Program-made: the position numbers and the translations under genes
In this document: in pieces, positions 2,158-64,000 of the stretch
Layout: every line of letters begins with the position of its first letter
Numbering within the stretch: the first letter of the stretch is position 1
DNA from: Affinibrenneria salicis
GTDB lineage: Bacteria; Pseudomonadota; Gammaproteobacteria; Enterobacterales; Enterobacteriaceae
Assembly (NCBI RefSeq): GCF_008710095.1
Contig: NZ_VYKJ01000004.1
Coordinates: 357,785-421,784 of the forward strand
DNA length: 64,000 nucleotides
Reading direction: 5' to 3'
The notes under the pieces: model-generated
Seen by the model: the letters and a program-made list of their open reading frames with translations, nothing else
Database searches by the model: none
Told to the model about the DNA's origin: nothing

Positions 2158-2165
2158 GGATCGCT

Positions 2166-4427
2166 TCACGACGCGGCCTCGTCGCCCAGGCGACGCCGGC
2201 TAATTTGCCGCATTAGTCGCCGGATGATCAGGGCTAACAGCAACGCCATCGCGAGCGCGCCCGCCGCCAGCCAGCCCGGATGCGGCGCCAGCAGATTCCA
2301 CAGGCTTTCCCACCAGGGCAGGTAGCCGACGTACCAGCTGTCGCCGACCCGCAGGCTGTTCACCCCGGCGGTGCGGATCAGGGCGACGGAACCGTAGATG
2401 GCGGCCCGTTTGCCGCTGTCGTTCAGCGCCTCATTCAGCAGTTCGCTGGCGGGTACGCTGTCCGCCAGCAGCGCCACGACGGCGCGCTGGTCGCGGTACG
2501 GCGATTGAAAGCTGACGATGGCGGCCAGCGGTCCTTCCGCGCGGATCGCCGTCAGGCTGGCCGGTTGACGATCATCGGCGCTGAGCGCCGCCGTTGCCAG
2601 TCGCGGCTGGCGCCGCGGTTTTTTCACCAGACTTTCGGTTTCCGACATCAGCAAATTAAGGTTGCTATTATCGCGCAGCGCCGCCGGCAACGCGCCGATC
2701 AGCAACAGGTCGACATCCTTATCGCGCGCCTGGCGCCAGTCGTCGGTGAGCTGCACGTTCAGCGCCGGTGCGCCGATCTGCGCGCCGATATTGCCCAGCG
2801 TATTGAGCAGAACGCCAACCTGCGCCGGCGTCGGCGTCGGGTTGACCAGCACCAGCGTTTGCGCCAGATCCGCCTGGCGGCTGAACGGGAAGCCGGCGTT
2901 GGCGAACGCGCTTAGCGAGGGCATTTCGAGATAGTGGCGATAGCCGGTGAAATCGATACTGGAATCGCCGTCGACCACGACATGGTGCGCGATGGGCGCG
3001 ATATCGGCATAGAGACCGTCTTGCTCGCGGCTCAGGGCGGCGGCGGCATAATCGAAGTCGAAACGCAGCGGATTGGCGATGTCGGGCCGCAGCGCGGGCA
3101 GGGCGAAGGTCGTGCCCGCGTCCTGTTGCCCCTGAACCAGCGGGATATGCAGTTGCCACGGACCTGGGGCGTCTTTATCGCCCAGCGGCGTATCCTGTAC
3201 GAACTGATTATTTAAATATACGGCCAGCCGTGAGCCGTCGTGCGGCAGGGGGGCGCTGTAGCGATACCGCAGATGTATTCCGATGCTGCGTTCGCGCGGC
3301 TGGTAGAGATCCGGCGGCAGGCGCAGCAGCAGAGAAATCGACCGGGGCCGTGCGCCGTCCGCCTGGAACTGCCCCTCATACTGCTGCAGCTCGGCGAAGC
3401 GCGTCGGACGGTCGGTGCGCACCCAATTGGGCGCGTCGTAGGGCGCGCGCGGCGCCAGCGGCGTAACGCTTTCCACCACGGCGGTCTGACCGCGCAGCAG
3501 CACGTCGCCCTGGGCGATGCCCTGCGCCGCCGTCACCAGATCATTATCGTCTCGTCCCAGCACCAGCAGCATTTTGGCGCAGGCGTCGTCCGGCTGGCTG
3601 CGCAACATCAGGGTCGGTTTATCGACCGGCGGCAGCGTTTTGAGAAAGTCCGGTCGGCGCGCATTGGTGGCGAATACCAGCGCGTGCCGTTGCGCGGGCA
3701 ACTGATTATACAGTACCGGGAAGCGCTGGCCGCGCCAGTCGGCTCTGACGCCGAACCAGGAGGCCATGATCGCCGCGGCGCGCTGTTCGGTCGCGCCCGG
3801 CGCGGCGGCGAACACCATCGGCAGCGTAAGCGGCTGGCCGTCGCGCGCGTCGAAAAACGGCTCCGGGAAACGCGCCAGATCGTTTTGCAACGGCAGTTTG
3901 CGCAGCGTCAGGGCCAGCGAACTGTCCTGAGCGATGTTCAGCCAGATGGCGTTATTGTCGGCATTTTCGTGCCGGTCGGCGTAGTGGCCGACCAAAGACA
4001 GGCGCAGCCGATTAAAATCGCCGATAGCGCGCGGATCGAGGGTTAACTGCGCCTGACGGGCGCTGCCCGCCGGTGTCGGATCCAGAGCGACGATGCCGAC
4101 CAGCTCGTCATTCAGGTAGACCTGCAGATGCGATTGAACCGGGAGCAGGGCGGGCGACGCGCGATAGTTGAGCCGCAGTAGCGCGCCGGTGACCATTTCG
4201 TCGCTGCGCACGCCGAATTCGATCTGCCCGTCGGGCCGGTTGCCCTGCAGATGGACGTTGCCGGGCGGCGGCGCGATCTTGCCGAAGCTCAACAGGTTTT
4301 CACGTTCCGGCGCGCAGGACGCTGCGGCGATCGGCGGGGAAGTCGGCGCCGTGGCGGCGCGCCCTGCGGGAGAAAGCGGCGCAAGGCTCAGCAGTAGCAA
4401 AGGAAACCAGCGTAGTCTGTTTGTCAT
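2166..4427 (-). CDS. bcsB: BcsB, cellulose synthase periplasmic regulatory subunit
   Basis: 753 residues, close to the usual size for BcsB. An N-terminal signal peptide (about residues 1-25, ending PAGRAAT) precedes alternating carbohydrate-binding-like and flavodoxin-like periplasmic domains. A single C-terminal transmembrane helix (WLAAGALAMALLLALIIRRL) is followed by a basic tail. In the family this subunit packs its tail anchor against BcsA and guides the glucan through the periplasm. The start lies 7 bases after the bcsA stop and the 3' end meets bcsC, so this is one transcription unit (bcsR-Q-A-B-C). The sequence is very GC-rich like the rest of the cluster. Confidence 0.93.
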   Translation of the reverse strand: MTNRLRWFPLLLLSLAPLSPAGRAATAPTSPPIAAASCAPERENLLSFGKIAPPPGNVHLQGNRPDGQIEFGVRSDEMVTGALLRLNYRASPALLPVQSHLQVYLNDELVGIVALDPTPAGSARQAQLTLDPRAIGDFNRLRLSLVGHYADRHENADNNAIWLNIAQDSSLALTLRKLPLQNDLARFPEPFFDARDGQPLTLPMVFAAAPGATEQRAAAIMASWFGVRADWRGQRFPVLYNQLPAQRHALVFATNARRPDFLKTLPPVDKPTLMLRSQPDDACAKMLLVLGRDDNDLVTAAQGIAQGDVLLRGQTAVVESVTPLAPRAPYDAPNWVRTDRPTRFAELQQYEGQFQADGARPRSISLLLRLPPDLYQPRERSIGIHLRYRYSAPLPHDGSRLAVYLNNQFVQDTPLGDKDAPGPWQLHIPLVQGQQDAGTTFALPALRPDIANPLRFDFDYAAAALSREQDGLYADIAPIAHHVVVDGDSSIDFTGYRHYLEMPSLSAFANAGFPFSRQADLAQTLVLVNPTPTPAQVGVLLNTLGNIGAQIGAPALNVQLTDDWRQARDKDVDLLLIGALPAALRDNSNLNLLMSETESLVKKPRRQPRLATAALSADDRQPASLTAIRAEGPLAAIVSFQSPYRDQRAVVALLADSVPASELLNEALNDSGKRAAIYGSVALIRTAGVNSLRVGDSWYVGYLPWWESLWNLLAPHPGWLAAGALAMALLLALIIRRLMRQISRRRLGDEAAS

Positions 4428-4434
4428 TATCTTA

Positions 4435-7035: not shown

Positions 7036-7040
7036 GGCGG

Positions 7041-7757
7041 CTACTCCGTTATCGGCTGGCGCAGCCAGACGGCCAGCGCGTTCAGCTCTTCGGCCGCCAG
7101 CGACTGCGGACGGTATTCGCCGAGCGGCTGTTTATGCAGCATCGCCTCGGCGACGGCTTCATCATGGTGTACGGTGAGCGGAACGCGCCGACGCAGCGAG
7201 ACGCTCCACAATTGGTGCAGATCCTGCTGGGCGGCGCTGTGCAGACTGAACTGATTGATAAGGTACCAGCCGCCGGGCGCGGGCGTAGCCCGGTGCAGGC
7301 GCAGATGGCAGTTGGCGTCGGGCATTATTACCTGAATCAGCCGGTCGACGCGCGGCAGCGCTGCGGCATCGAGACGGGCGGGAATATCCAGCAGGACCCA
7401 GTCGTAGTCGCGCCGCAGCGCCGGCAGGCATTGATCGAGCCAGGGCTGCAAAATATCGGCCGGCGCGCGGTAAAAGCGCGCCCGTTCGGCGGCGCTGAGC
7501 TCCCCGCACGGGATAAAATCCAGCCCCGGTCGGTAGCGCCGGGCGCCAGGGCGCGCGTCGTCGTCGCCCAGCGCCGCGCGCAGCCAGCCGGCGGTATCCC
7601 CGAACGGCGTATTGAAATGCTGGCCGAGCTGATTGGCGGGCGACAGATCCAGCGCCACGACCTTCTCGTCAGGGTGATGCAGCGCCCAGGCCAGTCCGGC
7701 GGTCAGGGCCGTGGCGCCGACGCCGCCGCGTATGCCCTGCAGCGCGATCACCGGCAT
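7041..7757 (-). CDS. bcsQ: BcsQ, MinD/ParA-like cellulose synthesis localisation protein
   Basis: 238 residues. The N-terminus has the P-loop GIRGGVGATALTAGLAWAL, matching the BcsQ version of the deviant Walker A. Later blocks with WVLLDIPARLD and VIMPDANCHLRLH are also BcsQ-like. The family is a SIMIBI ATPase needed for polar cellulose secretion in type II bcs systems, working with BcsR and usually BcsE. The gene overlaps bcsR by 10 bases and is followed by bcsA after 5 bases, so translation is probably coupled. Confidence 0.92.
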   Translation of the reverse strand: MPVIALQGIRGGVGATALTAGLAWALHHPDEKVVALDLSPANQLGQHFNTPFGDTAGWLRAALGDDDARPGARRYRPGLDFIPCGELSAAERARFYRAPADILQPWLDQCLPALRRDYDWVLLDIPARLDAAALPRVDRLIQVIMPDANCHLRLHRATPAPGGWYLINQFSLHSAAQQDLHQLWSVSLRRRVPLTVHHDEAVAEAMLHKQPLGEYRPQSLAAEELNALAVWLRQPITE

Positions 7758-7957
7758 GGCGTAACGTCTCCGGCGGTCCGGGCATCCAGTTCGTCCAGCA
7801 GCGGCCAGCGCGCCATTATTTCTCCATGGCGCTGTTCCGCATAAATATCGATATATTGATCCGGTAAAAGAGAATAAACGCGATTCAGGCGAGCAATGTC
7901 GTCTTGCTGTTTATTACAGTCTATGACGCGATAGAAGACGTTTTCTTTTTTCATCAT
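7748..7957 (-). CDS. bcsR: BcsR (YhjR family) small cellulose-cluster protein
   Basis: Small protein of about 69 residues starting MMKKENVFYRVIDC and carrying the family-typical RWPLLDEL near its C-terminus. BcsR is a short partner of BcsQ in the type II cellulose secretion machine. The start was placed at ATG 7957 (or 7954); an upstream in-frame TTG at 7981 would add eight residues but is not needed. It is the first gene of the bcsRQABC unit and overlaps bcsQ. The region upstream is the divergent bcs control region. Confidence 0.8.
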   Translation of the reverse strand: MMKKENVFYRVIDCNKQQDDIARLNRVYSLLPDQYIDIYAEQRHGEIMARWPLLDELDARTAGDVTPCR

Positions 7958-8846
7958 CCAGTGATAATAAGCAGGTGGCAAATAAAGCGCATTTGAGGCG
8001 CTAAGGTAAAGTTTCGGTATTGAATCATAAGATTAATCTGTATTGTTCTAAAAAATAGTATAATTGTAATAAAGTTATGAAATACGGCGCGCCCCGCATC
8101 CGACCAGAATCTGTTCTGGTTGCTGGATGGTCGGTTACCCGAATAAATTCATATTAGCTTCTTAAATAAGCGATAATCTAAAGGGGCTGGCGCCGCGCGG
8201 ACTCATACCCGGTCGATGTTGGTTCGCCATGCATTCAACCAGCCGCCCGGACGGTTCGGGCAGGCGATGGACTGCCCGACTGCCCGACTGCCCGACTGCC
8301 CGACTGCCCGACTGCCCGACTGCCCGACTGCCCGACTGGCGGTCCGCGTGGTCATCGGGGCGCGAATTTCACTTTATTTTATTTTATTTCATTTTATGTG
8401 ATCGTAAGTGAATGGAATAATCTGGCGATTATTTCGCTGAGTTATTATGCCCAATAAAATATTCTGGCAATAAACATTAACGTCAATGTGAATAATATTG
8501 ACCTGTGCGCAGAATGTTATTCTGAATATTGGTTTTATATGCGTAATGTTGAAAAATTGTCAGCCTGCGAGTAACGAAATACGTAACGTAAAGGGGTGTG
8601 TTTTTCTCTGCGTGAAATGAAAATATGTCGACTTGTGGCCTGGATGATATAGATTGTGGAGCGATGAATGTTCGGGATGAATAATAGGTGTCTGACGTTT
8701 TAAATATTCTGTTATTTTTTAATAAATTATACGCTATTTCCCCGTCGACTCCTTACGCGGCGGGCTTTTGTCGTTTGTCCTCGCCGTACCCCAAAGAGAT
8801 GAGGACGGCCAGCGACGTTTTTTCATCATTGGATGTGTAATAAGTC
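7958..8846. promoter_or_regulatory. Divergent control region between bcsRQABC and bcsG
   Basis: An 889-bp gene-free interval, mostly AT-rich, unlike the GC-rich bcs genes. It must hold the promoters of the minus-strand bcsR operon and plus-strand bcsG. It contains the 8-bp tandem repeat (separate entry) and, after it, an AT-rich TTTTATTT-like stretch at about 8355-8400. I see no convincing bcsE or bcsF reading frame here. Individual promoters could not be assigned by eye. Confidence 0.5.
8271..8338. repeat. Tandem octanucleotide repeat (ACTGCCCG x8)
   Basis: Eight perfect head-to-tail copies of ACTGCCCG from 8271 to 8334, followed by a partial copy (ACTG). The unit length is not a multiple of three, so copy-number change would shift any reading frame or alter promoter spacing. 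It lies about 313 bases upstream of the bcsR start and 509 bases upstream of bcsG. Perfect short-unit repeats like this are typical slippage sites. The small reading frames that run through it are low-complexity and probably not genes. Confidence 0.95.
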
Positions 8847-10505
8847 ATGACGGACGTTAATCGAACTGTACGAGAAACGGCTGCCCGTTGGCGCTTTTGG
8901 CGCGGACTTAGCGGCTGGGATTTTTATTTTTTGCTGAAGTTCGCCTTGCTGTGGTTTGGCTATCTGAATTTTCACGCACTGGCCAATCTGGTTTTTTTGG
9001 CCTTTCTGCTGTTCCCCATTGCGTCGCGCAAACTGCACCGTCTGCGCCATATCGTCGCGTTGCCCATCGGCCTGGGGTTGTTTTATCACGACACCTGGCT
9101 GCCGGGTCTGAGCAGCATTGTTCATCAGGGGGCGATGCTGACGGATTTCTCCGGCGCTTATCTGCTGGATTTAACCAACCGTTTTATCAACTGGACGATG
9201 ATCGGCTGCGCATTCGTTCTGCTGGTGGGCTACCTGTTTGTCTCTCAGTGGCTGCGCGTTAGCGTGCTGGTTACGCTGGCGCTGATCTGGATTAATCTGG
9301 TCAATATCGCCGGGCCGGCGGTGGCGCTGATCTCCAACCCGGCGGCGACGCCGCCGGTCGCGCTGAAAAACGAAACGACGCCGGCGCCAGTACCGAAACC
9401 CGGCGGACTGGACGACGCCGCCCCGCCCACCAACGCCAACCTCACGGACTGGCTTGAGCGCTTCCACACGCGGGAGAAGCTGCGCGCTACCGATTTTCCC
9501 GCGGCGCTGCCGGCCGATTCTCAGCCGTTTGACGTTCTGATCCTCAACATCTGTTCGCTCTCCTGGTCCGATATTGAGTCCGTTCAACTGCGCGACCACC
9601 CGCTGTGGAAGCGTTTCGATATTATTCTCGGCAACTACAACTCGGCCACCGGCTACAGCGGCCCGGCGGCGATCCGTCTGATGCGCGCCAGCTGCGGTCA
9701 GGCGGCGCACAGCGAGACCTACAAACCAGCGCCCGAACGCTGCTACCTGTTCGACAATCTGGCAAAACTGGGGTTCAGACAGCACCTGGTGCTTGATCAC
9801 CCGGGGGTATTCGGTAACTATCTGACTAATCTGCGTGAACTGGGGCGGGCGCAGGGACCGCTGATGTCTCAGGTCGGCATTGCGCCGGCGCTGACCTCAT
9901 TTGACGGCACGCCGGTATTCAGCGACGGACAACTTATGCAGCGCTGGCTGGATGAACGGCGGCAGAGCAATGAAGCGCGCAGCGCCACCTTTTACAATCT
10001 GATCCCATTGCATGACGGCACCCGTCCGCTGGGCAGCACCCGTTCGGCGCCGTATCAGCCGCGCGCGCAGCAGTTGTTTGATCAGCTGGATGCTTTCCTG
10101 ACCAATCTGCAGACTTCCGGCCGCCGGGTCATGGTGATTGTGGCGCCGGAGCATGGCGCGGCGCTGGTCGGCGACAAAATGCAGATGCCCGGTCTGCGCG
10201 ATATACCCAGCCCGTCGATTACCCATGTGCCGGTCGGCATCCTGTTTGTCGGCATGAAGGCGCCGCATCAGGCGCAGCCGCTGCGGGTGGATACGCCCAC
10301 CAGCCTGCTGGCGATCTCGGAACTGATCGCCCGGGTGGTGGACGGTCAGGTGTTCAACGCGCCGAACGTCAACATGTCGGTGCTGACGGATAACCTGCCG
10401 CAGACGCCGGCGGTTTCCGAAAATGATGACGCGGTGGTGATCCTGTATCAGGGGCAGCCCTGGATTCGCCTTAACGGCGGCGATTGGGTACGCTATCCGC
10501 AGTAG
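8847..10505 (+). CDS. bcsG: BcsG, cellulose phosphoethanolamine transferase
   Basis: 552 residues. About five N-terminal membrane helices (roughly residues 25-170) precede a periplasmic alkaline-phosphatase-like domain. The catalytic region LNICSLSWSD holds the family Cys and the Ser nucleophile, and PEHG near residue 434 holds the Glu/His zinc ligands. In E. coli BcsG transfers phosphoethanolamine from phosphatidylethanolamine to cellulose. It is transcribed divergently from bcsRQABC, but here it stands alone, without the usual bcsE and bcsF ahead of it. Confidence 0.93.
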   Translation: MTDVNRTVRETAARWRFWRGLSGWDFYFLLKFALLWFGYLNFHALANLVFLAFLLFPIASRKLHRLRHIVALPIGLGLFYHDTWLPGLSSIVHQGAMLTDFSGAYLLDLTNRFINWTMIGCAFVLLVGYLFVSQWLRVSVLVTLALIWINLVNIAGPAVALISNPAATPPVALKNETTPAPVPKPGGLDDAAPPTNANLTDWLERFHTREKLRATDFPAALPADSQPFDVLILNICSLSWSDIESVQLRDHPLWKRFDIILGNYNSATGYSGPAAIRLMRASCGQAAHSETYKPAPERCYLFDNLAKLGFRQHLVLDHPGVFGNYLTNLRELGRAQGPLMSQVGIAPALTSFDGTPVFSDGQLMQRWLDERRQSNEARSATFYNLIPLHDGTRPLGSTRSAPYQPRAQQLFDQLDAFLTNLQTSGRRVMVIVAPEHGAALVGDKMQMPGLRDIPSPSITHVPVGILFVGMKAPHQAQPLRVDTPTSLLAISELIARVVDGQVFNAPNVNMSVLTDNLPQTPAVSENDDAVVILYQGQPWIRLNGGDWVRYPQ

Positions 10506-10709
10506 GCAGGCGCGTCAGGCGGATCGATTTACGCTGAATCATCCGCGCGGCGGGATGGCGGCCGGCGCGGGGATGCGTCGCCGCCCGCCGGGATAATGAC
10601 GCGGCCGATGAGCGAATTGCCGGGAGCCGATTTGAACGCGGCTGGCAGCGTATTTGTCTGGACGGGCCGGAGCGTTCGCCTGAAGGGAACGAATATAGAG
10701 GGAACAGGA

Positions 10710-11780
10710 ATGTTAGTCAGGGTTAAAAGAATAAAACCGAACAAGTCGTTATACACCGCACATGTGCTTTTTTACTATGCCTCTATTTTTATCATCGTGC
10801 CGTTTAATTCTCGTCTGATGCCGTTTTTGATATACACGACGATGGGAATTATGATTTATATCATGGTCACGCCGGGCGCTATGCCGACTTTCTTCCGGCG
10901 AAAACCAGCGCGGAGTAATGAATGGAAAGTAAAGAGTAAAATCAGTTTAATGAGTCAGTATGCCTTGAGCATAAGATTGTCGCTGCTGGCATCACTGGTG
11001 TTTTTGATCTCTTGTGTTTTGTTCAGATTTTCATCCCGGCTGGGGATCACACCCTTCATTATGTGCGCCGTGGTATTCTGTGCCTTGATGTATATGGCCT
11101 TATGTTTTTATATTTCCAACTCTGAACGCGGCGATGGCGCGGTAAAAAATATATTCTGGACCTTCTTTAAAATCTCCTGGCTGGCCGTATCCGTTTATTG
11201 TTATGCGCTGGCAAGGGATTTTTTTATGGAAGTAATCGACATCCCCTATGAGCAGGTTATTTCAAAAGTGACGGTGTTGGGGTATTCAATCGTACTTTTT
11301 GTTATGTCCTATCTCGCTTTCGCCAGTTTTGCTATTCTGATCATTGTGTTTTTTGAAAACAAAAAAATAAATTTTGCTGAAAAAACAATACGCCTGGAAA
11401 ACTATAGCAGTGCGCCCATTCTGGTGCCTCTTTTTTGCGCCTGGTACATATTTTTTATCATTTATATGGTAAATGCGAGCAGCATTGCCAACTATGTGTT
11501 TAATGTCACCATTCCCCTGGATACGCGAACGGATTTTTTCTGCCATAATCGCTATATGATCATCGATGAACAGCCGAACGCGGTCTATATGACGGTGCCG
11601 CGGGATGGCTACCGTGCTTTCGTGCCCGTAAGAGGATCGTGGCAGACGTATCGGTTGACGTGCATTACCGACGCGCCGTACTACAGTTATCAGCCGGTGA
11701 AGTTGAAAAGTGATCTATATTTGCTGGCGAAAGTCGATAGTTTTAAGCTGGATATAGAAAACGCGCGGCGGAATAACTGA
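10710..11780 (+). CDS. Polytopic membrane protein of unknown function
   Basis: Start chosen at ATG 10710 (MLVRVKRIKPNK), preceded by AGGGAACAGGA; a longer frame from 10596 adds a GC-rich, non-membrane leader and looks wrong. About 356 residues with six to seven hydrophobic helices (for example SLLASLVFLISCVLF and APILVPLFCAWYIFFIIYMV). A soluble C-terminal segment of about 80 residues contains two Cys (FFCHNRY and LTCITDA) that could pair outside the cytoplasm. It is AT-richer than bcsG, 204 bases upstream. I do not recognise the family. Confidence 0.65.
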   Translation: MLVRVKRIKPNKSLYTAHVLFYYASIFIIVPFNSRLMPFLIYTTMGIMIYIMVTPGAMPTFFRRKPARSNEWKVKSKISLMSQYALSIRLSLLASLVFLISCVLFRFSSRLGITPFIMCAVVFCALMYMALCFYISNSERGDGAVKNIFWTFFKISWLAVSVYCYALARDFFMEVIDIPYEQVISKVTVLGYSIVLFVMSYLAFASFAILIIVFFENKKINFAEKTIRLENYSSAPILVPLFCAWYIFFIIYMVNASSIANYVFNVTIPLDTRTDFFCHNRYMIIDEQPNAVYMTVPRDGYRAFVPVRGSWQTYRLTCITDAPYYSYQPVKLKSDLYLLAKVDSFKLDIENARRNN

Positions 11781-11891
11781 TTGGTATTACTCTTCCCCGC
11801 TGCTGTTCCGGCCGCAGATCGGGGATAAAGCGGCCGACGCGGGACTAAAAGCGCGTATTTCGCGTTCATTCATCATGCAGACCCGTATTAT

Positions 11892-12812
11892 TCAGAGATA
11901 GCGATGGGTGAATTTTATCACCCCGGTTGTCCCCTGAAAGACCCTTGCCAGTAATGGCCCGGATACCAGATCGTTTGCCAGCAGAAACCAGATAGACCGG
12001 GCCTCTCTTAGCAAGATATAGGGTGCGATATCATAGAGCGAGCAGGTTTTTTCCGCGTTGCGATTATAGGTGTCGATAAAATAATTGATATTGCTTTGAG
12101 TTAGGGCGGACTCAGGATCCAGACCTATGATATTCCAGCTGATAATGCCGCAGTCATAAAAAGAACTGGCGATTCCACAACTTTCGAAGTCTATAAAATA
12201 TGCCTGCTTTCCCTCGATGAAGGCATTATTCGGCCGGGGGTCGCCATGGCAAAATGTCATGCAGTGGTCGTCTCTTATATTTTTTATGCAGGAAAGCAGA
12301 TAGCTATACTGGTTTTTATCTTTGTCGCCGATCAGCGGGTGATCGATGAGTGGCTCAAGATCTATTAATAGATCGCGAATAATAATAGGTTTGGCAAACG
12401 GCAGACCTGATGTGTTTCTATGTAATGCGGCCAGGGATGTCGCCAGTGCGGCTAAATCACCCTCTGTCATTTGGCATAGCCGGCCTTTGGCCTCTTCAAA
12501 TACCAGCGCCGGGCGGTGACTGTTCCGTGATGAAAAAACTGACGAAAATGCGCCATCGCGATTGAGCACCGCCTTGCTGGCGGATAAGCCCTGCGATTGC
12601 AATAGGGTAGATATTCTCCCTTCCGATTCCACAGACGCTTGCGTACGTTCTTGCTGAAAGATCTTTATATAAAATTTCTTGCTGTCAGGGCAGCAAACGA
12701 GCAATACAGTATTGACGCCGTTAACGACAATACTTACTTCGCTGGCGCGGATACCATAAATGTCGGTTAGCCATTGTCGTATCTGAATTTGGTACTGATT
12801 ATTCTGGACCAT
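11892..12812 (-). CDS. APH/choline-kinase-fold phosphotransferase
   Basis: 306 residues of the aminoglycoside-phosphotransferase/homoserine-kinase-like fold. The Brenner-type catalytic loop FCHGDPRPNN (about residue 190) and the metal-binding YFIDFESCG block are both present. An N-lobe Lys lies in KFYIKIFQQE. The family phosphorylates small hydroxyl- or amino-containing metabolites. The substrate cannot be read from the sequence, and a drug-resistance role is not implied. It stands alone, in the opposite orientation to its neighbours. Confidence 0.75.
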   Translation of the reverse strand: MVQNNQYQIQIRQWLTDIYGIRASEVSIVVNGVNTVLLVCCPDSKKFYIKIFQQERTQASVESEGRISTLLQSQGLSASKAVLNRDGAFSSVFSSRNSHRPALVFEEAKGRLCQMTEGDLAALATSLAALHRNTSGLPFAKPIIIRDLLIDLEPLIDHPLIGDKDKNQYSYLLSCIKNIRDDHCMTFCHGDPRPNNAFIEGKQAYFIDFESCGIASSFYDCGIISWNIIGLDPESALTQSNINYFIDTYNRNAEKTCSLYDIAPYILLREARSIWFLLANDLVSGPLLARVFQGTTGVIKFTHRYL

Positions 12813-12932
12813 AAAAAGCGCTTAACATGACTTTTAGCCGTAAGACCACCACGATAACACCTGATTTGTACCGTTTTAATGACAACGTAAAGTTTGCTGA
12901 CCGCCAAATCTGACCGCCGCAGCGCATCCCTC

Positions 12933-13063
12933 TATATTCTAAATCATTCGCGTTGCAGGAAGGCGGCAAGAGAGCGGATCCCGAATCGCTGACTCAAATT
13001 GGCTATTCGGGGGAGCGAGCGTAGCCAACGCACCGGCAACCTGCAGTATGTCGAGTATAGGGC
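12933..13063. repeat. Enterobacterial-type intergenic repeat (about 130 bp, imperfect palindrome)
   Basis: The left part GCGTTGCAGGAAGGCGGCAA and the right part GAGCGAGCGTAGCCAACGCA match, in reverse orientation, the unit at 27044-27166. It sits in the otherwise gene-free 12813-13666 interval. No protein-coding potential is apparent. I do not assign a family name. Confidence 0.6.
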
Positions 13064-13666
13064 TTATCGGCCGTCCTTATTTGAGCGCGGTTTCAATGAA
13101 TAGATCGATCAGCAGGCGCCGCTGTGTTTGTTACTGCGCATAACGCGGCGATGTATGCAGGCTGCGTTTGTGGGCCGCCTATACGTTCAGTACGCCGCAG
13201 CGCTTCTCTATCGAGGGCTGGCGCGGGGTGGTTTCCGGCTGAACCTGTTTTGTCTGTCATCCCGTCACTTCGCCTTAATCGAAGTCTGTCCAGCACGGGC
13301 AATGAATCATTGTTGTTTTGCATTCTGCGTTGGTTTTTTGGAATTTTTATTTCATAAATGTATTGTGATGACTATCACTGTTCTTTAAGCGGAAGATATT
13401 TATTAACTCTATATAATAAGTAAAAACAATAATATGACTTTAACGGGTAGTAATTTTTTAAAATTCGCGACGGTGTTTTAATCAATGTATACGGTTTTAA
13501 TTTTTTGATCTTCTTCTCAATGTGAACAATAAATTTTATTTTGTATTGAAGCGGGAACTTTTTGTTCCATACTCAGCCTGTGTCAGATGAGATTGATGTC
13601 GAGTGCGCGCAGCGCCATACGTTCGGCAGCGGGCACTGGCGAAACGGCCTGTGAACAGGGGGGAGA

Positions 13667-15604
13667 ATGAAAAGCATCCGACTGACGGTAGCCCAGGCAT
13701 TAGTGCGCTTCCTTGATAATCAATATGTCGAAATAGACGGTAAACAGATTAAGTTTGTTAAAGGCATATTCGCTATTTTTGGTCACGGTAACGTGTTGGG
13801 GGTGGGGCAGGCCCTTGAGGAGGACTGCGGGCAGCTCTCGGTATACCAGGGGCGTAATGAACAGGGGATGGCTCACGCCGCCATCGGTTATGCAAAACAG
13901 CTATTGCGTCATCAAATCATTGCCTGTACTTCCTCCGTCGGGCCCGGCGCCGCAAACATGATCACCGCCGCCGCAACGGCTACCGCTAATCGTATCCCGC
14001 TGCTTTTGCTGCCAGGCGACACTTATGCGACGCGTCAACCCGATCCGGTATTACAGCAAATAGAGCAAAGCCATGATCTCAGCATCAGCACTAATGATGC
14101 GTTTCGTCCCGTTAGTAAATACTGGGATCGGGTTAGCCGGCCCGAGCAGTTAATGACCGCCTGTATTAACGCGATGAGAGTGCTCACGGACCCCGCGGAA
14201 ACCGGGGCGGTAGTCTTGTGCCTGCCGCAGGACGTGCAGGGGGAGGCGTGGGATTATCCCGATTACTTTTTTGCCCGACGAGTGCACCGTATCGAGCGCC
14301 CGTTGCCGACGGAAGCCATGTTGAAGGATGCGCTGGCCGTACTGAAGAGCAAACAACAACCGCTTATTATCTGCGGCGGCGGGGTGAAGTACTCGCAGGC
14401 TGGGCTTGAATTGATCGAATTCGCAGAAAAATTCACTATCCCGATAGCCGAAACGCAGGCTGGTAAAGGCACCATCAGCTCCGCGCATCCCCTCAACGTC
14501 GGCGGTATCGGCGAGACCGGCTCGCTTAGCGCGAACGTGCTGGCCGCCGAGGCTGATTTGGTGATCGGGGTCGGAACGCGTTACACCGATTTCACGACAT
14601 CGTCGAAGTGGATTTTTAAAAAAAAGGGCGTTTCGTTTTTAAATATCAATATCAGCCGATTCGATGCCTTCAAACTGGACGGCGTTCAACTGGTGGGCGA
14701 CGCCAGAGCGACTCTGATTGATCTCCTCGAAAATCTGAACGCCGGCGTCTATACGGCCTGGCGCAACCGGATTAAAGATGCCCGGGCGCAGTATCTTGCG
14801 GAAGTAGAACGCGTATACAGCGTTGCGTATTCGGGAACCGACTTTATTCCAGAAATAAATGACCGTCTGGATCGTGAGCGGGTTTATGCGGAGTTCAAAC
14901 GCCTGACGAGTTCGTTATTGACCCAGACCCGCGTGATGGGCGTGCTCAATAAAACGCTGCCGCAAGAGGCGGTGGTGGTTGCCGCATCCGGTAGTTTGCC
15001 TGGCGATCTGCAGCGCGTCTGGCAAAGCCGGGGAGGCAACGATTATCATGTCGAATATGGCTATTCCTGCATGGGGTATGAAGTCAATGCCGCACTTGGC
15101 GTTAAGATGGCTCAGCCCGCGCGCGAGGTCTATGTCTTTGTCGGCGATGGCGCATTCATGATGTTGCATTCTGAGCTGATTACCTCTCTGCAGGAGGGAA
15201 AGAAAATCAATATTCTGCTGTTCGATAACATGGCTAATGGCTGTATCAACAATCTGCAGATAGGGCACGGGATGGACAGCTTCTATACCGAGTTCCGTTA
15301 CCATTTGGAAGACGGCAGCAGACAGGACGGCGGTCTTATCCCTGTTGATTTCGCTAAAATCGCTGAAGGGTATGGCTGTAAAAGCTATGCGGTGACCACG
15401 CTTGAGCAACTGCATGAGGCGCTGGCTGACGCCCGGCGGCAAAAACACTCAACATTGATAGATATTAAAATCTTGCCTAAGACCATGGTTCATAACTATT
15501 TCAGCTGGTGGCGGGTCGGCGGTGCGCAAGTCTCCCGTAGTGAAAGAATCAATACCGTAGCCAAAACGCTTGAGGCCAACATTAATAAAGCGCGTCAATA
15601 CTAA
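13667..15604 (+). CDS. iolD: IolD, 3D-(3,5/4)-trihydroxycyclohexane-1,2-dione acylhydrolase (ThDP-dependent)
   Basis: 645 residues, the usual IolD length. The N-terminal pyrimidine-binding domain has [13 protein letters not shown] with the ThDP-activating Glu. The C-terminal domain has [11 protein letters not shown] and FDNMANG, the GDG-N metal/diphosphate motif. IolD opens the ring of trihydroxycyclohexanedione to 5-deoxyglucuronate in myo-inositol breakdown. The ATG follows a strong AGGGGGGAGA site. iolA/mmsA lies 3.5 kb downstream, but iolB, iolC, iolE and iolG are not in the window. Confidence 0.9.
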
Positions 15605-56095: not shown

Positions 56096-57096
56096 TCAGT
56101 TATCTTTCGTAATATCACAGAAGAGAATCGGCATGGTCAGCACGCTGGGCAGGGACGCCTGCTGCACGGAGGGAAAGCAGGCGAATGACGCTGAGTGTAA
56201 TGCCGGCAGTTGCACCAGCTCCGGCGTATTCGCGCTGAAGGCCGTAACATACGGGCTTAACAATCGCCTCAAAAATAACCGGATAGCACCCAATTTAAGC
56301 ATACTCAGGTAGTTCCTGGCCGTTTTTTCCGAGCGTGTGGCGATACGCCTGTTTTCTTTTAGTATCGCAAAACAACGCTCGACAACATTACGCTTTTTGT
56401 ACAATCGGACATTCAGTTTTCGACGCCCATCCCGGCTGGCTTTTTCATTCGATTTGAAAGGGCTCTCTGCCTTTATTCCTTTGATTTTAAGATGGTGACG
56501 CAAGGATTGACTCGAGTATTCCTTATCCGCCAGCACCGCTTTCGGGCGGCATTTCAGGTGGCCGTTTCTTCGTATAACCCCAACGCGATTAAGCAAGGTG
56601 TCTGCGTATCGACTCTCGTGGGATTGTCCGCCGCTCAGGCAGAGACTCAATGGTAACCCTGTGCTATCTGTCGTCAGGTGGACTTTGGTACCAAAGCCGC
56701 CTCGAGAGCGACCCAGCCCATGATCGTCGAGTTCATCGGGATGTTTTTTTTAGCGCCAGCGGCCGCTTTCAAGGCTCGTATGTTACTGCCATCAAGGGCT
56801 ATGGCATCCCATCCCACCAATCCGTTCTCATCTAAGATGAAAAGTAATTTATTGAAAATACTATTTATTATTGCCATTTTAGACCATCGGTTAAATCGGT
56901 TGTAAATAGTTTTCCAATGGCCATAGCGTTCGGGCAAATCCCGCCAGGGAGCCCCGCAGCACAGCACCCAAAATATACCATTCATCACTTGTCGGTGCTC
57001 AAGATAAGGGCGACCACCCTGGGGTGCTCCTCGTTCAGTCGGCAACATGGGGTAAATCAGTGCCCAGGCATCATCAGGGAAATCGTAACGGGCCAA
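56096..57096 (-). mobile_element. IS5-family insertion sequence, two-frame transposase
   Basis: OrfA (56674-57096, TTG start) begins LARYDFPDDAWALIYPMLPT after an AGGG site and carries the first catalytic Asp in WDAIALDGSNIR. OrfB (56096-56650) carries VLADKEYSS (second Asp) and KKRNVVERCFAILKENRRIA (Glu). A run of eight A residues on the coding strand (about 56744-56751) allows a -1 slip that joins the frames in the order expected for an IS427-group transposase (KKKHPDELDDHGLGRSRGGF). No stop interrupts the joined frame, so the element may still be active. Terminal repeats were not resolved. Confidence 0.85.
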
Positions 57097-57911
57097 GTGA
57101 AAAGACCCTGGTGGTTAGAACATAGGTTCAATTGTACAAAAAACAGTTACGGGACACAGCCTGGAAGGTAGAGACCATGAGAATCGGAAACTTTGAAGGG
57201 TTTAGCGGATGGTGTTAAGTTGCGGATTTTTGAGTCGTTAAGAGACATGTGGGGGTCACTCCGTCATCGAACCAACTTGACCCCAAATCTGACCACCAAA
57301 TTCTCCCGATGCGGAGGGAAAACCAGAAACGCATCGGGAAGACTTTTCACGCTAACCTGTTGAATCAATGTACAAATAGGGATTCGCAAGGATGCATGAA
57401 AACAAGTAAATGACTCCTCTGACTGAGATCGCCTTAGCCAGTAAATGGCTAATAAACAGGCTAAATGGTAACAGCTTTTCTGTCAAGACCACCAAAGTGA
57501 CCACCTCTGAGAAATGTATACATTTAGAAGAGGCAATGACCACTGGGGAGGATAAGACGTTGACCCGTGATTTCGTATTTATTTGTTATGTAATGTTTTT
57601 ATTGTTAGTCATCATTTCTATACTCACCTTTTTTGGTGTTATCTGTGGTTAGTTATCACAGCACTAACCAATTTTTGAGCATTTGGATTGACTAATACCA
57701 TTTCTTTTCATTATGAATAATGATGCGTCAACTGATGGCGAACAGGCCAAATCCACTCTTCTACAACTGCCCATTGCCACGGTGTGGAATAATTAAAAAT
57801 TTTAGATTTTTGAGATTATTCTCATTTCCATCTTGATTTTATTTGTTTTTTCATCAAAATTCATAGTTCACAAGCTGTTCTCACTCCAAAAACAACCGTA
57901 AAGGGATTATT
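57097..57911. other. Region between IS5 element and RADAR operon
   Basis: 815 bp, AT-rich on its right side. It holds the upstream end of the IS element, an unexplained stretch with repeated GACCACC-type words (57240-57530), the small membrane ORF (separate entry) and the presumed rdrA promoter between 57780 and 57911. No other gene seen. Confidence 0.45.
57536..57652 (+). CDS. Possible 38-residue single-TM small protein
   Basis: ATG 57536 is preceded by AGAAGAGGC. The product is a short charged head (MTTGEDKTLTRD) followed by one transmembrane helix of about 22 residues (FVFICYVMFLLLVIISILTF). The same frame is open further upstream to 57410. It lies 259 bases before rdrA in the same direction. 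Size and form are like small inner-membrane proteins or type I toxins. Not recognised; could be chance. Confidence 0.35.
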   Translation: MTTGEDKTLTRDFVFICYVMFLLLVIISILTFFGVICG

Positions 57912-60635
57912 GTGAACACGATATACATACCATTAGACAGCGGAGAGTCTGCGGTTCTTAAGGATCCAGATACCTTACTTCCCCGAAATATTTACGAACA
58001 GCTTACTCGATTTATTGAAAAGGCTGTTAACGAAGTACCAAAGCCTCACGAAGCGCTTAATGAAACCCGTAGCCATAAGGCTATATCGATTGACGGCGCA
58101 AGGGGGACAGGAAAAACGTCGGTGCTAGTGAATTTGAACGACTATCTGCAGAGTAATGCTCAGCAACTGGCGGGGAAAATTCATACCCTTGATCCTATCG
58201 ATCCGACCCTGCTTGAAGATGGTGAGTCGCTGTTCTTGCATATTATTGTTGCTGCCGTGCTTCATGATAAAGAGATCAAAACTGCCCAAAGCAGGGACCT
58301 CGATAAGTCCAGAGTGTTTACCCAGAAGCTTGAGAACTTGGCGCACGGACTGGAGTCCGTTGATTTGCAACAGAATCAACGTGGAATGGATAAAATTCGC
58401 TCCTTATATGGCAGCAAGCATCTGGCAAATTGCGTTGAAGAGTTTTTAAAATCTGCGTTGGAGTTGATCGGAAAGAAATTATTGATACTACCGATTGATG
58501 ATGTGGACACTTCACTCAACCGGGCATTTGAAAATCTGGAAATATTGCGTCGTTATCTTACCTCTCCGTATGTTTTGCCGGTAGTGAGTGGCGATCGCCG
58601 TTTATATGATGAGGTCTGCTGGCGAGATTTTCATGGAAGGCTGAATAAAGATTCAGCATATAATCGCAAGAACACATATGATATTGCTAGAGATTTGGCA
58701 ATTGAGTATCAGCGTAAAATTCTGCCGCTACCGCGCAGACTGAGTATGCCCGATGTAAGTGATTACTGGCAGCAAGATGGTATCGAAGTTACGCTAGATA
58801 AAAATGGCATTCCTCTGCGTAATTTTATGGCGTGGTTGAAAATATTTATTACCGGCCCCGTGAATGGCCTTGAGGGTAGTGATTTACCGCTACCGATACC
58901 TTCAATACGTGCTTTAACCCAGTTCATCAACCATTGCAGGGATTTAATTCGTGAGCTTCCTGAACCATTCAGAAAGAAAGCCAGTACGCTGGCTTTACGT
59001 CGTATGTGGCAAATGCCTGATGTTCCTCTTGATGTTCTTGAAAGTTTTGCTGAAAAACATCGGGAATTGAGTAAAGAAGCTAAGCGTGAATATGGGGAGG
59101 CTTACAAGCTATTTTATGATGGACTAAAGAATTTCACTGCTTGGGAGAGTAAGGCTTATCTAGAAAATGATAAAAAATCTGCATGGCTCGATAAGTTGTG
59201 TGAGTATTTTCGTTTTGAACCTAAGGCTGGGGCTGTGTTTTTAACGCTTCAGGCAAAACAGTTCTGGGTGTCATGGGCGCAGGGTGACAATCGTAATCAA
59301 TCGATTCTTGCGACTCCGCTTTTTCAACCCTTATTGCATAATTTTCGTGAATACGATGTCTTTGAAAGGTATGATGATCTTTCTGATTGGGAATCTCAGT
59401 TAAGAACAAGGTTACCGGAGAGTTGGTTGACTGCCATTAAAGGGCAAAAAACGCTTTTACCCTATCCTGTGGCAGAGGCGGGAATTAATACCAGTTTAAA
59501 GTGGAAGTATTGGGAAGAATTAGAGAACTATGGGTTTGATCCTGCTTTGGAAAGCAAGGCAAATTTCCTTTTGTCCACGTTGATGCAGAGGAATTTTTAT
59601 ACAAACTCTAAACAGTCGGTCGTGATAAATATTGGTAGAGTTTTTGAAATAATTATTGCTAGCCTTGTTTCGGATTTAGAGTTGGCCGACTTGCAGAGAA
59701 TTAGACAACGTTCTCCATTTTACTCTGCTAGCGCGCTTGCACCTACCAAAACGTTAGATTTGGAAGAGGATTTTACGAAAAAGAATACAAGATTTATGAA
59801 TAACAGAAGTGAAACTGACAGAGACACTTCTGATGATATTCTTGTTGATGTGCCGGATAAAAATGAGGACGCATGGAAAAAACTTTGTGATGAAATAAAC
59901 CATTGGAGAAAGACACACAATGTGGCTAGTACAAACTTATCACCTTGGCTGGTTTATAAGGTTTTTAATAAAACATATAGTCAGGTTGCTAATAATGTGT
60001 TTGTTCCCAGTGGAATGCAAAATATTGATGCGGCTCTAAATTTTTTTGGTAGGGTTTTTTATGCAGTTTGGTCAGCATTTGGTAGTTTTGAAAAGGGCGA
60101 ATTGTTCGGACTATCCGATGTGGTTGCTACAACTAATATTATTTCGGCAAAAAATTTTTATAATCATGATAACTTCCGAGTGAATGTTGGACCGTTTACG
60201 CCTGAGCAAAACCAAAATTCTGACAGCGATCGTGAGGCATATCAGCATCGCAAAATGTATGGTGAAAAAACCAGAGCGGTAAGTTATGTATTAGCAACTC
60301 ATCCGCTGAAAAAATGGACCGACGAGGTATTACGCACTGAGTTTAAACAAAAACAGAATGCTCAGCTTCAGACCGAGAGAAAAATGCTGACTCAGGCTGA
60401 GAAAATTATAGATATCAGCCCGGCAAGAGAGTTTATCACAAGCAAACTTTCATTAAATTCACACTCCCGGTTGGTTAAAACACGTATAATAAAACAGCTT
60501 AAGATGTTATATCCAAACTACGATAAGGCTAAGGACTTCATTGATGAAGTTACAAACCACTTCCCTCAGAATGATCCCGCAATTAATACGCTTCTGAAAG
60601 CATTTGCAGAACTTTACCCCGATGGTGACAAATAA
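57912..60635 (+). CDS. rdrA: RdrA, RADAR anti-phage ATPase
   Basis: 907 residues, the expected size. STAND/AAA+-like NTPase with Walker A GARGTGKT at residues 62-69 and Walker B LLILPIDDVDTS around residues 190-200. The remainder is a large helical C-terminal region with no nuclease or known effector motif. In RADAR, RdrA forms heptamer rings that associate with RdrB; together they edit or deplete adenosine nucleotides on infection. GTG start after AAGGGA. Its stop overlaps the rdrB start (TAATG). AT-rich relative to the host genes. Confidence 0.88.
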   Translation: MNTIYIPLDSGESAVLKDPDTLLPRNIYEQLTRFIEKAVNEVPKPHEALNETRSHKAISIDGARGTGKTSVLVNLNDYLQSNAQQLAGKIHTLDPIDPTLLEDGESLFLHIIVAAVLHDKEIKTAQSRDLDKSRVFTQKLENLAHGLESVDLQQNQRGMDKIRSLYGSKHLANCVEEFLKSALELIGKKLLILPIDDVDTSLNRAFENLEILRRYLTSPYVLPVVSGDRRLYDEVCWRDFHGRLNKDSAYNRKNTYDIARDLAIEYQRKILPLPRRLSMPDVSDYWQQDGIEVTLDKNGIPLRNFMAWLKIFITGPVNGLEGSDLPLPIPSIRALTQFINHCRDLIRELPEPFRKKASTLALRRMWQMPDVPLDVLESFAEKHRELSKEAKREYGEAYKLFYDGLKNFTAWESKAYLENDKKSAWLDKLCEYFRFEPKAGAVFLTLQAKQFWVSWAQGDNRNQSILATPLFQPLLHNFREYDVFERYDDLSDWESQLRTRLPESWLTAIKGQKTLLPYPVAEAGINTSLKWKYWEELENYGFDPALESKANFLLSTLMQRNFYTNSKQSVVINIGRVFEIIIASLVSDLELADLQRIRQRSPFYSASALAPTKTLDLEEDFTKKNTRFMNNRSETDRDTSDDILVDVPDKNEDAWKKLCDEINHWRKTHNVASTNLSPWLVYKVFNKTYSQVANNVFVPSGMQNIDAALNFFGRVFYAVWSAFGSFEKGELFGLSDVVATTNIISAKNFYNHDNFRVNVGPFTPEQNQNSDSDREAYQHRKMYGEKTRAVSYVLATHPLKKWTDEVLRTEFKQKQNAQLQTERKMLTQAEKIIDISPAREFITSKLSLNSHSRLVKTRIIKQLKMLYPNYDKAKDFIDEVTNHFPQNDPAINTLLKAFAELYPDGDK

Positions 60636-63379
60636 TGTTAACTCGGTCTCTAAGTGAACATGCAGCAGGGTGTTTTTTCACTGATGAGCGTCTGTCACAA
60701 CGCTTTCTAGATATCCTTTTATCGCCACCCAAGGATTTTGAAACGTGGTCATCATTGCAGGAGGAATCTTTCAAGCTGCTCGTTAAGAGCATCGATAGCC
60801 GATATCCACGCACTTACCGGTTAACCGACGTACGCCAGCTTGTGGGGAACATATGTGACAACGGGTTACTGACGAGTCCGACACTACCTTGGCTCGATGT
60901 CATTGCGGATCAGCTACTGTTGCGGAATGGCGACTTACTCTATTACCGCGAAAATAAGGTTCAAGACTACGTGCGAATAGCCGCGGAACTCGACCCGGCC
61001 CTTCTAGTGGGATGGCGTCTTGGCGACTGGCTTTTGCAAAGCCCACCGCCGCGATTGACGGACATAACCCGTGTGGTGATGGCGCAGAATCCGTTTTTTG
61101 CTCCACCTGCTAATGCAGGTAAACCTTTTGCCGAGGGGCACGTACATCTCGGGGGAGTGACGGCTGGAGATACTATTTTGGATGGCTATCTTTTTGAAGA
61201 GATTGAACTACCCAAAAGCAAAGAGATGTTGTTGTGGGCACACAAAGAGCATGATGAGTTAACACCGTTGATAAATCGAGCAAAGTCTTTGCTTACAGTT
61301 CTACTTTCAGCCTCCCCTCAAACGGTTTCTGAGCAAAATCAAAATGGTTTGGATCAGCGTAAAACTGTATCTGAGAAGTACAAGGCATTACAGAACCCAA
61401 TGGATAGCATCCAGCGTCTCCCGGACTGGTTATTGCTTGCTAAAAAGAATTGCGGAACTGAAAGCGTCAGCCCCGGCTGGTTTTTAAACCAACTGGCGCA
61501 TGCCTCCGAAAAAAAACATCCCTCACGCTGGCTGTGGCTGCAGCTTTACCTTTGCCACTCTTATCAGCTTAAAGACACTCATCCGCTGGAGCGCACGGCA
61601 ATACTCTGCTTTTGGCTTACGGTAAATGCGCTACGGCGTCACATTATTATGGACGGGCAGGGGCTTGCGTGTTTTACCGAGCGTTATTTTAATGGTGCTT
61701 TACGTGCGGGTAAGAAAGCTGACAGTAGCAATATGCGCTACCTGTTTGCCGGTAAAGACGATGTGGCCGAAGTGAAAGCATCCCCAAAGGCTTTCGATCA
61801 TGAGATGGTCACTGCATTTTCCTCGACATTGCTGAAAACCCTCGGCATTCCAGCTGTTTTTCCACCGTATATTTTTGGTGAGCATGAGATTAAGCCAGAT
61901 GAACGCGTGCTGCGCTATATTGGAGCACTGGAGCGCTGGCAGTTTTGTGGGCACTTTTCTCGCTCTAAAACTGCAAGTCGCGGCATGCGAGCAAAGGCTG
62001 ATTTGCAGGCTAACTGGACAGAAGCGGAGCGATTGTTACAGAAACTGTACAGTCATAATGGCTGGAATCATCCCGTCTTCTTAGGGGGTAAACGTAACCC
62101 ACATTTTCATTTTCAGCCGTCGAACTGGTTTCGAGGGCTTGATGTTGCAGGGGATGAAAACGTACTAAAAATTGCAGGCTTTGCCCCGATGCTGCGCTGG
62201 CTACGAAGTGGATTATATCCCGTTCCAGACGGGCTTCGCGCCAGTATGAGTTTTCATTTCAGTATTCATGCCGGGGAGGATTACGCACATCCGGCGTCAG
62301 GATTGCGCCATATTGATGAAACGGTTCGCTTCTGCGAAATGCGGGAGGGAGACCGGCTAGGACATGCTCTGGCTCTCGGAATTGAACCTGCGCTCTGGGC
62401 GAAACGGCATGGTGAAATGATACTACCTCTGGATGAACATTTAGATAATCTAGTCTGGCAGTGGCACTATGCAACGCTTTTATCGGCTTCATTGCCTCTC
62501 GCTCAGGCGGTATTACCGCTGCTTGAGCGTAGAATCGCACGCTTTATTGCACGGTGCGAATGGTGCAAAAAGAGACCTCCGCAAATAGATAACAGTGTGG
62601 TGGGGAAACAGGCCTGTAGTGATGATAAACCTCTGGAAAATATTACACCTGATACGCTCTACCGGGCCTGGCTACTGCGGCGTAATTGTTCATATCGACT
62701 CCAGCAACTCCACGGCGGTTCACCTTTGACCTCGCAAGAGAAATGCGCGCTGCCGGATTGGGCTACGCTCAGCGATAAAGGCAATGTGGCGGCGCAGCTT
62801 TATCAGCAAAGACACTCGAGTCTCCTTGACGATCTGCCGCCGCAACTGGTAGTTGTGCGTGTAGCGGACGAATGGGGAACTCAGGAGCTGATTGGCTTGG
62901 GAAATCCCGGTAAACTGCGTCAGCAGGCTCGTGATGGTAAAGATATCCTCCAAGACATTGATACGCCGGTAGAGCTGCAATTTATGCATGCTTTACAGGA
63001 CTATTTGCTAGATCACTATGATCGTAAAGGATTAATTATCGAAACCAATCCAACATCAAACGTATATATCGCGCGATTCAAAAAGCACGTAGAGCATCCT
63101 ATTTTTCGTTGGAATCCTCCGGATGAAGAACTGTTGAAACCAGGCGCTGAATTCAATCGTTATGGATTGCGCCGTGGGCCAGTCAGGGTTCTGGTCAATA
63201 CTGACGATCCAGGGATTATGCCTACGACATTACGGACGGAATTTTTACTACTGCGAGAGGCTGCGATTGAGCGTGGTGTCAGCCGAACGATGGCAGAATA
63301 TTGGCTGGAAAGGCTGCGCCTGTACGGGCTGGAACAGTTTCAGCGTAATCATTTAAATGTATTTGAAGTTATTGAATAG
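60635..63379 (+). CDS. rdrB: RdrB, RADAR adenosine deaminase
   Basis: 914 residues. The adenosine-deaminase TIM barrel is split by long insertions as in RdrB. Zinc and catalytic motifs are all visible: GHVHLGG (residues 168-174, HxH), HAGEDYAHP (from residue 545, His and catalytic Glu), RLGHALALG (His) and NTDDPGIM (Asp857-Asp858). ETNPTSN before the last motif is the usual structural block. RdrB deaminates adenosine (in RNA or as ATP) to inosine and assembles into large shells. Coupled to rdrA by a one-base overlap. Confidence 0.9.
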   Translation: MLTRSLSEHAAGCFFTDERLSQRFLDILLSPPKDFETWSSLQEESFKLLVKSIDSRYPRTYRLTDVRQLVGNICDNGLLTSPTLPWLDVIADQLLLRNGDLLYYRENKVQDYVRIAAELDPALLVGWRLGDWLLQSPPPRLTDITRVVMAQNPFFAPPANAGKPFAEGHVHLGGVTAGDTILDGYLFEEIELPKSKEMLLWAHKEHDELTPLINRAKSLLTVLLSASPQTVSEQNQNGLDQRKTVSEKYKALQNPMDSIQRLPDWLLLAKKNCGTESVSPGWFLNQLAHASEKKHPSRWLWLQLYLCHSYQLKDTHPLERTAILCFWLTVNALRRHIIMDGQGLACFTERYFNGALRAGKKADSSNMRYLFAGKDDVAEVKASPKAFDHEMVTAFSSTLLKTLGIPAVFPPYIFGEHEIKPDERVLRYIGALERWQFCGHFSRSKTASRGMRAKADLQANWTEAERLLQKLYSHNGWNHPVFLGGKRNPHFHFQPSNWFRGLDVAGDENVLKIAGFAPMLRWLRSGLYPVPDGLRASMSFHFSIHAGEDYAHPASGLRHIDETVRFCEMREGDRLGHALALGIEPALWAKRHGEMILPLDEHLDNLVWQWHYATLLSASLPLAQAVLPLLERRIARFIARCEWCKKRPPQIDNSVVGKQACSDDKPLENITPDTLYRAWLLRRNCSYRLQQLHGGSPLTSQEKCALPDWATLSDKGNVAAQLYQQRHSSLLDDLPPQLVVVRVADEWGTQELIGLGNPGKLRQQARDGKDILQDIDTPVELQFMHALQDYLLDHYDRKGLIIETNPTSNVYIARFKKHVEHPIFRWNPPDEELLKPGAEFNRYGLRRGPVRVLVNTDDPGIMPTTLRTEFLLLREAAIERGVSRTMAEYWLERLRLYGLEQFQRNHLNVFEVIE

Positions 63380-63390
63380 AGGATTTTATC

Positions 63391-63816
63391 GTGAGTGGTA
63401 CATTGCCTTACTTGCAATATACGGATGTCAATGGGCTACAACCTAAGCTCAAAGAAGAGCTGAAAAATTTACGGAGAAAAGAGTATTTGTCGTACTGGCC
63501 TCGTTTTCTGATACGTAGAATTTCGCTTTATGCTATTCCGTTCCTCATGTTCTTCACTTTTTTCTTTTGTCTGAGTCTGACGAAGAAAGTTGGGGCAGAG
63601 GAAGTGAATAATATTCTTGGAACCGTGAGCATATCCTTCAGTAGCTGCCTGCTGCTGGGGATTATTATTTCTGGTGTCGTGTTACTCTTGCAGTGGAAGT
63701 GCTTCAGCTGTAAATACAGTCCGCAGGATACGAATGGAGTTGTTGGGTCTCGTAAGTTAAATTATAAATTACTTGCTCATGTTGATCTTGCCCAGCAACG
63801 GTGGACACTGCCTTAA
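63391..63816 (+). CDS. Accessory two-TM membrane protein of the RADAR operon, 3' end cut by an IS3 element
   Basis: GTG start 12 bases after the rdrB stop with GAGG upstream. A basic N-terminal helix (about residues 15-45) precedes two membrane helices ([18 protein letters not shown] and [20 protein letters not shown]). RADAR operons often carry an accessory membrane gene (rdrC, Csx27-like, or rdrD, SLATT-like). Two helices suit SLATT, but the assignment is not certain. The last four codons and the stop come from the inserted IS (TGGACAC begins at 63802), so the native C-terminus after about residue 137 is missing. Confidence 0.7.
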
Positions 63817-64000
63817 ACGAGGTTTCTTTCCTCAAATTGCACCGGGCTTAGCCCGCCGTTGGCACTATGCCGTCGGTGCCGATTGTAGTCTATCTCGATA
63901 TACTCGAATACCGCCGATTTCATCTCCTCCCGCGTGTTGAACCTCTCTCCGTGGACTAGCTCCACTTTCAGGCTATGGAAAAAGCTTTCCGCACAGGCGT
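63802..64000 (-). mobile_element. IS3-family element (partial, right part outside window)
   Basis: Starts at the terminal TGGACAC and continues to the window edge. The minus strand encodes the OrfB C-terminus in one open frame ([20 protein letters not shown], then [20 protein letters not shown] and [11 protein letters not shown]). This is an intact-looking IS3-group integrase end. The closely related but decayed end at 25653 shows an older insertion of the same family. Confidence 0.88.

Follow-up and report, generated by a model that had tools for sequence, protein, structure and literature searches.

Genes of the RADAR locus

The right end of a 64,000-nucleotide stretch of Affinibrenneria salicis DNA (contig NZ_VYKJ01000004.1; hereafter the window) carries an operon of the RADAR anti-phage defence system, in which the genes rdrA and rdrB are followed by a third gene, rdrD, that is interrupted by an insertion sequence (IS). 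A sequence-only reading of the window had placed three open reading frames (ORFs) here, and all three (907, 914 and 141 aa) were found where it had put them, the last one at 63391-63816. The features of the locus are listed in Table 1.

Table 1. Features at the right end of the window (positions numbered from its first base; TM, transmembrane).
Feature	Position	Strand	Description	Evidence
rdrA (AAA+ ATPase RdrA)	57912..60635	+	907 aa, GTG start	NF041743 and PADLOC matches
rdrB (adenosine deaminase RdrB)	60635..63379	+	914 aa	
rdrD 5' remnant	63391..63783	+	codons 1-131 of 245; 2 of the 4 predicted TM stretches	NF041745, homologue alignment, hydrophobicity peaks
IS3-family element end cutting rdrD	63783..64000, runs off window	-	exact base uncertain by 2-3	similarity to annotated IS3 copy
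IS5-family element	56096..57096	-	transposase in two frames, ORFs 56096-56650 and 56674-57096 (140 aa)	
tRNA-Asn island remnant	57164..57425	-	beginning of tyrosine-integrase gene and spacer to attachment site	similarity to E. coli locus L005
tRNA-Asn-type attachment core	57414..57425		12 bases, left edge of the stretch in common with P. gergoviae	

The identity of the two large proteins, proposed earlier from motifs, was borne out by profile searches. RdrA matched NF041743 with 868.3 bits (cut-off 600) over the whole profile (1-742 of 742) and the PADLOC profile PDLC02216 with 1566 bits, while RdrB matched NF041744 with 983 bits (cut-off 800; profile positions 2-850 of 850) and the PADLOC RdrB profile with 1725 bits. 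The best Pfam matches to both ORFs fell below the curated cut-offs, so the RADAR identity would be missed by Pfam alone. The genes lie in tandem with the one-base overlap noted before, the rdrA stop codon TAA (60633-60635) sharing its last base with the rdrB ATG, which begins at 60635. Frame damage was seen in neither gene.

The ATPase Walker A and B motifs and the deaminase HxH, HAGE, GH and DDP motifs described in the sequence-only reading could all be located. In RdrA, the Walker A motif GARGTGKT occupies residues 62-69, with G67, K68 and T69 aligned to G81, K82 and T83 of E. coli RdrA, and the Walker B motif LLILPIDDVDT occupies residues 190-200, with D196 and D197 aligned to D221 and D222; the sensor-1 residue D228 aligns with D253. 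These Walker A, Walker B and sensor-1 residues were invariant in all 25 aligned rows. In RdrB, the motifs HVH, HAGED, GDRLGH and NTDDPG start at residues 169, 545, 572 and 855, respectively, and H169, H171, H545, H577 and E548 are in register with H152, H154, H498, H530 and E501 of the E. coli protein, which by alignment assigns them as zinc histidines and catalytic glutamate; they were invariant in 29 of 29 rows. The E. coli RADAR structures solved by cryo-electron microscopy (8fnt, 8fnv, 8fnw, 8hr7) have the catalytic residues and the overall RdrB fold in common with our locus, with 17% identity over the RdrB structural alignment. They differ in the length of the RdrB chain (798-799 residues versus 914 here), and significant sequence matches to them were confined to the RdrA ATPase stretch and two RdrB deaminase stretches.

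The third ORF had been taken for a small two-TM protein completing a three-gene RADAR operon. Two hydrophobic stretches are indeed present and rdrA-rdrB is a RADAR pair, but the 141-aa ORF covers only the 5' portion of rdrD, a longer gene that encodes 245 aa in four relatives (P. gergoviae, Kosakonia, Silvania and E. coli). Against NF041745 the remnant scored 115.5 bits over profile positions 1-121 of 227, below the cut-off of 230 for an intact RdrD, whereas the RdrD of P. gergoviae ATCC 33028 scored 280 bits. DNA homology to the P. gergoviae rdrD extends as far as 63784; from 63782 onwards the window matches an IS3-family element, with 219 bases (63782-64000) that are 97% identical to an annotated IS3-family copy of the E. 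coli plasmid NZ_CP027439, in agreement with the IS3 right flank reported earlier. Since the rdrD homology stops where that of the element starts, the ORF consists of 131 native codons and 10 codons contributed, together with the stop, by the element (63784-63816). A simple hydrophobicity scan gave four peaks for full-length RdrD and two for the remnant; with the gene truncated, the apparent two-TM accessory is a by-product of the truncation. Lost with the second half are TM stretches 3 and 4 and a tail that hardly varies among 28 full-length rows.

Regarding the family of RdrD, SLATT proteins have two TM helices. A commentary on RADAR assigns the rdrD subtype as SLATT-associated (PMC7699616). 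Full-length RdrD of P. gergoviae matched no Pfam family at E <=0.1, a search that covered SLATT families only so far as Pfam holds them. We claim no fold for RdrD, since its model is of low confidence (mean predicted local distance difference test score, pLDDT, 64.8) and gave no Protein Data Bank match at E <=0.001, the best being 0.59, and a PADLOC DpdC match to the full-length protein (15.8 bits, E 0.0034, 24 residues) was taken as chance. RdrD does not occur in the main text of PMC9994260, and a full-text literature search for RdrD with RADAR gave 14 papers, none of them on phage defence, judged by titles.

Left edge, base composition and horizontal transfer

The operon belongs to a stretch of DNA (57411-63784) that is 98% identical to the locus of P. 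gergoviae ATCC 33028, and the identity is even along rdrA and rdrB (98.2-99.0% per 500-base bin over 58000-63499). Elsewhere in the window the similarity is far lower: other matches longer than 600 bases between the window and the P. gergoviae genome reached 66-74%, the best among the 40 candidates scored in each search being 73% for 1-20 kb, 74% for 20-40 kb and 68% for 40-57 kb. Higher values occurred only in stretches shorter than 160 bases, the highest being 93-94% over 69 bases and 92% over 37 bases, and the best long match to the other genome of the genus draw was 77%. Membership of the same species was therefore rejected as the source of the 98% identity. The AT-rich setting pointed out in the sequence-only reading was recovered (GC content of 41-48% over 58-64 kb versus 64-70% over 0-8 kb, in 2-kb windows); it is the 98% at the operon against 66-74% elsewhere, more than base composition, that indicates movement between lineages. 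At the level of DNA similarity, this comparison shows horizontal transfer of the operon between lineages, as had been proposed, and the transfer may have run in either direction.

The left edge of the common stretch coincides with the 12-base attachment core, which also occurs at position 777 of the P. gergoviae locus and in both tRNA-Asn genes of an E. coli locus (L005). Position 57411 is where homology to P. gergoviae starts and 57425 where that to the E. coli integrase/tRNA-Asn stretch ends; the island remnant is 89% identical over 263 columns to L005 3001-3261, from the integrase start through the tRNA-Asn end. Further left, the IS5 flank reported before was confirmed, the family call resting on the 140-aa ORF (NF033580, 114.1 bits, cut-off 110). 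Scanning the window for tRNA genes and Rfam families returned nothing, and a consensus scan for promoters and terminators gave counts of 5 (11.6 on average after shuffling) and 7 (6.3 after shuffling), so that we claim neither.

An 80-codon ORF (57410-57652) begins at the attachment core, to the left of rdrA; it appears hydrophobic near its end by eye, has a similar counterpart in P. gergoviae, and gave no Pfam match above the curated cut-off. Across the window, GC content is 41-59% over 8001-64000, down from 64-70% in 1-8000. Within the GC-rich part, 4851-6455 is about 75% identical to annotated bcsA (cellulose synthase) genes of two enterobacterial plasmids.

Related loci and occurrence

The closest known system is the RADAR locus of P. 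gergoviae ATCC 33028 (NZ_BCZS01000004.1), which has the same gene order and the same left-edge attachment core. It differs in that rdrD is intact (245 aa) and is followed by the Gabija genes GajA and GajB and three genes that match PADLOC Hp1-Hp3. This stretch (8062-15173 of that locus; GajA 928 bits, GajB 704 bits) forms a compact defence island with RADAR, and the genes matching Hp1-Hp3 lie on the other strand and gave no NCBIfam match at E <=0.01. The continuing defence island proposed in the sequence-only reading is thus seen in this relative, not in the window itself. The Kosakonia, Silvania and E. coli operons (L002, L003 and L004) likewise have the order rdrA-rdrB-rdrD, with best-segment RdrB identities of 86% for L002 and 88% for L003, but they carry a 245-aa rdrD and lie beside ychF instead of a tRNA-Asn core. 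The annotation of E. coli L004 splits the rdrB stretch into three hypothetical proteins. Direct adjacency to ychF was seen in five RdrB-bearing loci (L002, L003, L004, L036 and L041; annotated in L004, by eye in the others), which suggests a chromosomal hotspot.

In a draw of 392 genomes of the family, RdrB was matched in 16 at E <=0.001, four of them at full length (P. gergoviae G001, 99% identity; G608, 87%; G230, 48%; G425, 47%) and the others partially. In a draw of equal size, RdrD was matched in two, G001 and G608, which are the two whose RdrB is at least 87% identical to ours. A tblastn search of RdrD over the 10 loci fetched in the RdrB draw likewise gave matches in these two only, each locus covering about 1.5 kb around the RdrB match, so that an rdrD farther off is possible. 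The RdrB profile found matches, some of them weak, in 11 of 394 genomes of the order and in none of 14 control genomes. RADAR is rare, with 270 of about 38,000 genomes according to figures in PMC9994260.

A plasmid origin was not supported, as 7 of 72,556 plasmid records matched RdrB and none covered 80% of it (best 32.4% over 68%), nor was a phage origin, with RdrB matches in 0 of 50,697 phage records. The Salmonella plasmid pIndS104-CTX (L034, 2617-7695) carries a distant RdrB relative annotated as hypothetical (29.9% over 66% of the query), and an 836-codon hypothetical gene directly before it could be the RdrA of that locus.

Interpretation of the truncated operon

With high confidence, we read the locus as follows: the RADAR operon belongs to the lineage that carries rdrD and lies on DNA which has moved horizontally and begins at a tRNA-Asn-type core; its rdrA and rdrB are intact, an IS3-family insertion interrupts rdrD after codon 131, and its biochemistry presumably resembles that of the solved homologues. 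By analogy with these, RdrA would assemble into an AAA+ heptamer and sit like a funnel on a dodecamer of RdrB; upon infection RdrB would become active and convert ATP and dATP to ITP and dITP, and these products would poison the nucleotide pool and so halt phage replication. Of the RNA- and ATP-deaminating activity proposed earlier, the ATP part is favoured and the RNA part is doubtful, given that PMC9994260 describes ATP and dATP deamination with little RNA editing and a weak editing signature.

A functional RdrA-RdrB pair at this locus is plausible from the open frames, the conserved catalytic residues and the dN/dS values (ratio of nonsynonymous to synonymous rates). Differences from P. gergoviae number 39 in nucleotides and 17 in amino acids for rdrA (dN/dS 0.20), 39 and 11 for rdrB (dN/dS 0.12), and 11 and 6 for the rdrD remnant (dN/dS 0.34, from few sites). 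These ratios support the view that rdrA and rdrB form a conserved core under purifying selection. Several points weigh against our interpretation. The dN/dS values of rdrA and rdrB derive from 39 differences per gene and a single relative, and the purifying signal probably stems mostly from the time before the IS insertion, so that the present usefulness of RdrA-RdrB is not thereby shown. The sensor-2 arginine (R377 of E. coli RdrA) falls outside the part of our RdrA that can be aligned to the solved chain. The HxH stretch of RdrB, while in register with the structure chain, is not significant alone (-3.4 bits), and the predicted RdrB model is of middling quality (mean pLDDT 75.5), dropping to block means of 55 and 50 over residues 161-180, the part with this motif. 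Finally, the P. gergoviae comparisons scored 40 first-look candidates out of 52, 244 and 125.

On balance, we lean towards RdrD being non-functional without its C-terminal half (TM stretches 3 and 4 and the conserved tail) and the system still working as RdrA-RdrB alone. RADAR is described as a two-gene system, rdrA and rdrB, in PMC9994260, and the commentary PMC7699616 distinguishes rdrAB-only, Csx27-associated and SLATT-associated subtypes; together these descriptions indicate that rdrAB can stand alone in general, with nothing certain following for this lineage. It is conceivable, if rather unlikely, that the operon is instead dying: RdrD would be needed in this lineage, the insertion would have ended defence, and rdrA and rdrB would not yet have decayed. 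The company that rdrD keeps with close RdrB relatives fits this account, as does the nearly invariant tail, which points to conservation of RdrD where it is present. It is opposed by the undamaged frames of rdrA and rdrB, by the full-length RdrB genes of G230 and G425, which have no rdrD match in their 1.5-kb flanks, and by the two-gene and rdrAB-only descriptions cited above, although the constructs tested in PMC9994260 may have held rdrD.

It is improbable that the 141-aa hybrid is a still working membrane partner, i.e., a two-TM SLATT-like accessory. Hydrophobic stretches 1 and 2 survive in the hybrid, as does the N-terminal part, which is strongly conserved, and SLATT-associated loci have been reported, as mentioned; yet it ends in residues encoded by the IS and lacks the conserved tail, and even full-length RdrD resembled no Pfam family. 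Repeated elements are common misassembly points and the far side of the element lies off the window, but an assembly artefact hiding an intact rdrD is very improbable, as the rdrD homology passes into the element end without a gap, such an IS3 end occurs once in the window, and a contig break is not indicated, the RdrA of the window being listed on a contig of 421,784 bases, which does not in itself prove the junction.

Returning to the RADAR operon with a truncated rdrD, this is a well-supported member of a known family with a modest twist. We tentatively raise the possibility that it is a natural rdrD knock-out still defending through RdrA-RdrB, with RdrD a dispensable, transferable add-on whose family would be four-TM and separate from the SLATT proteins with their two TM helices. 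The present operon, recently moved and with rdrD cut but rdrA-rdrB intact, forms a ready pair with its 98% identical counterpart, in which rdrD is whole, for addressing the role of RdrD; if the knock-out interpretation is true, RdrD would be an add-on, and not a part of the core machine, in this lineage.
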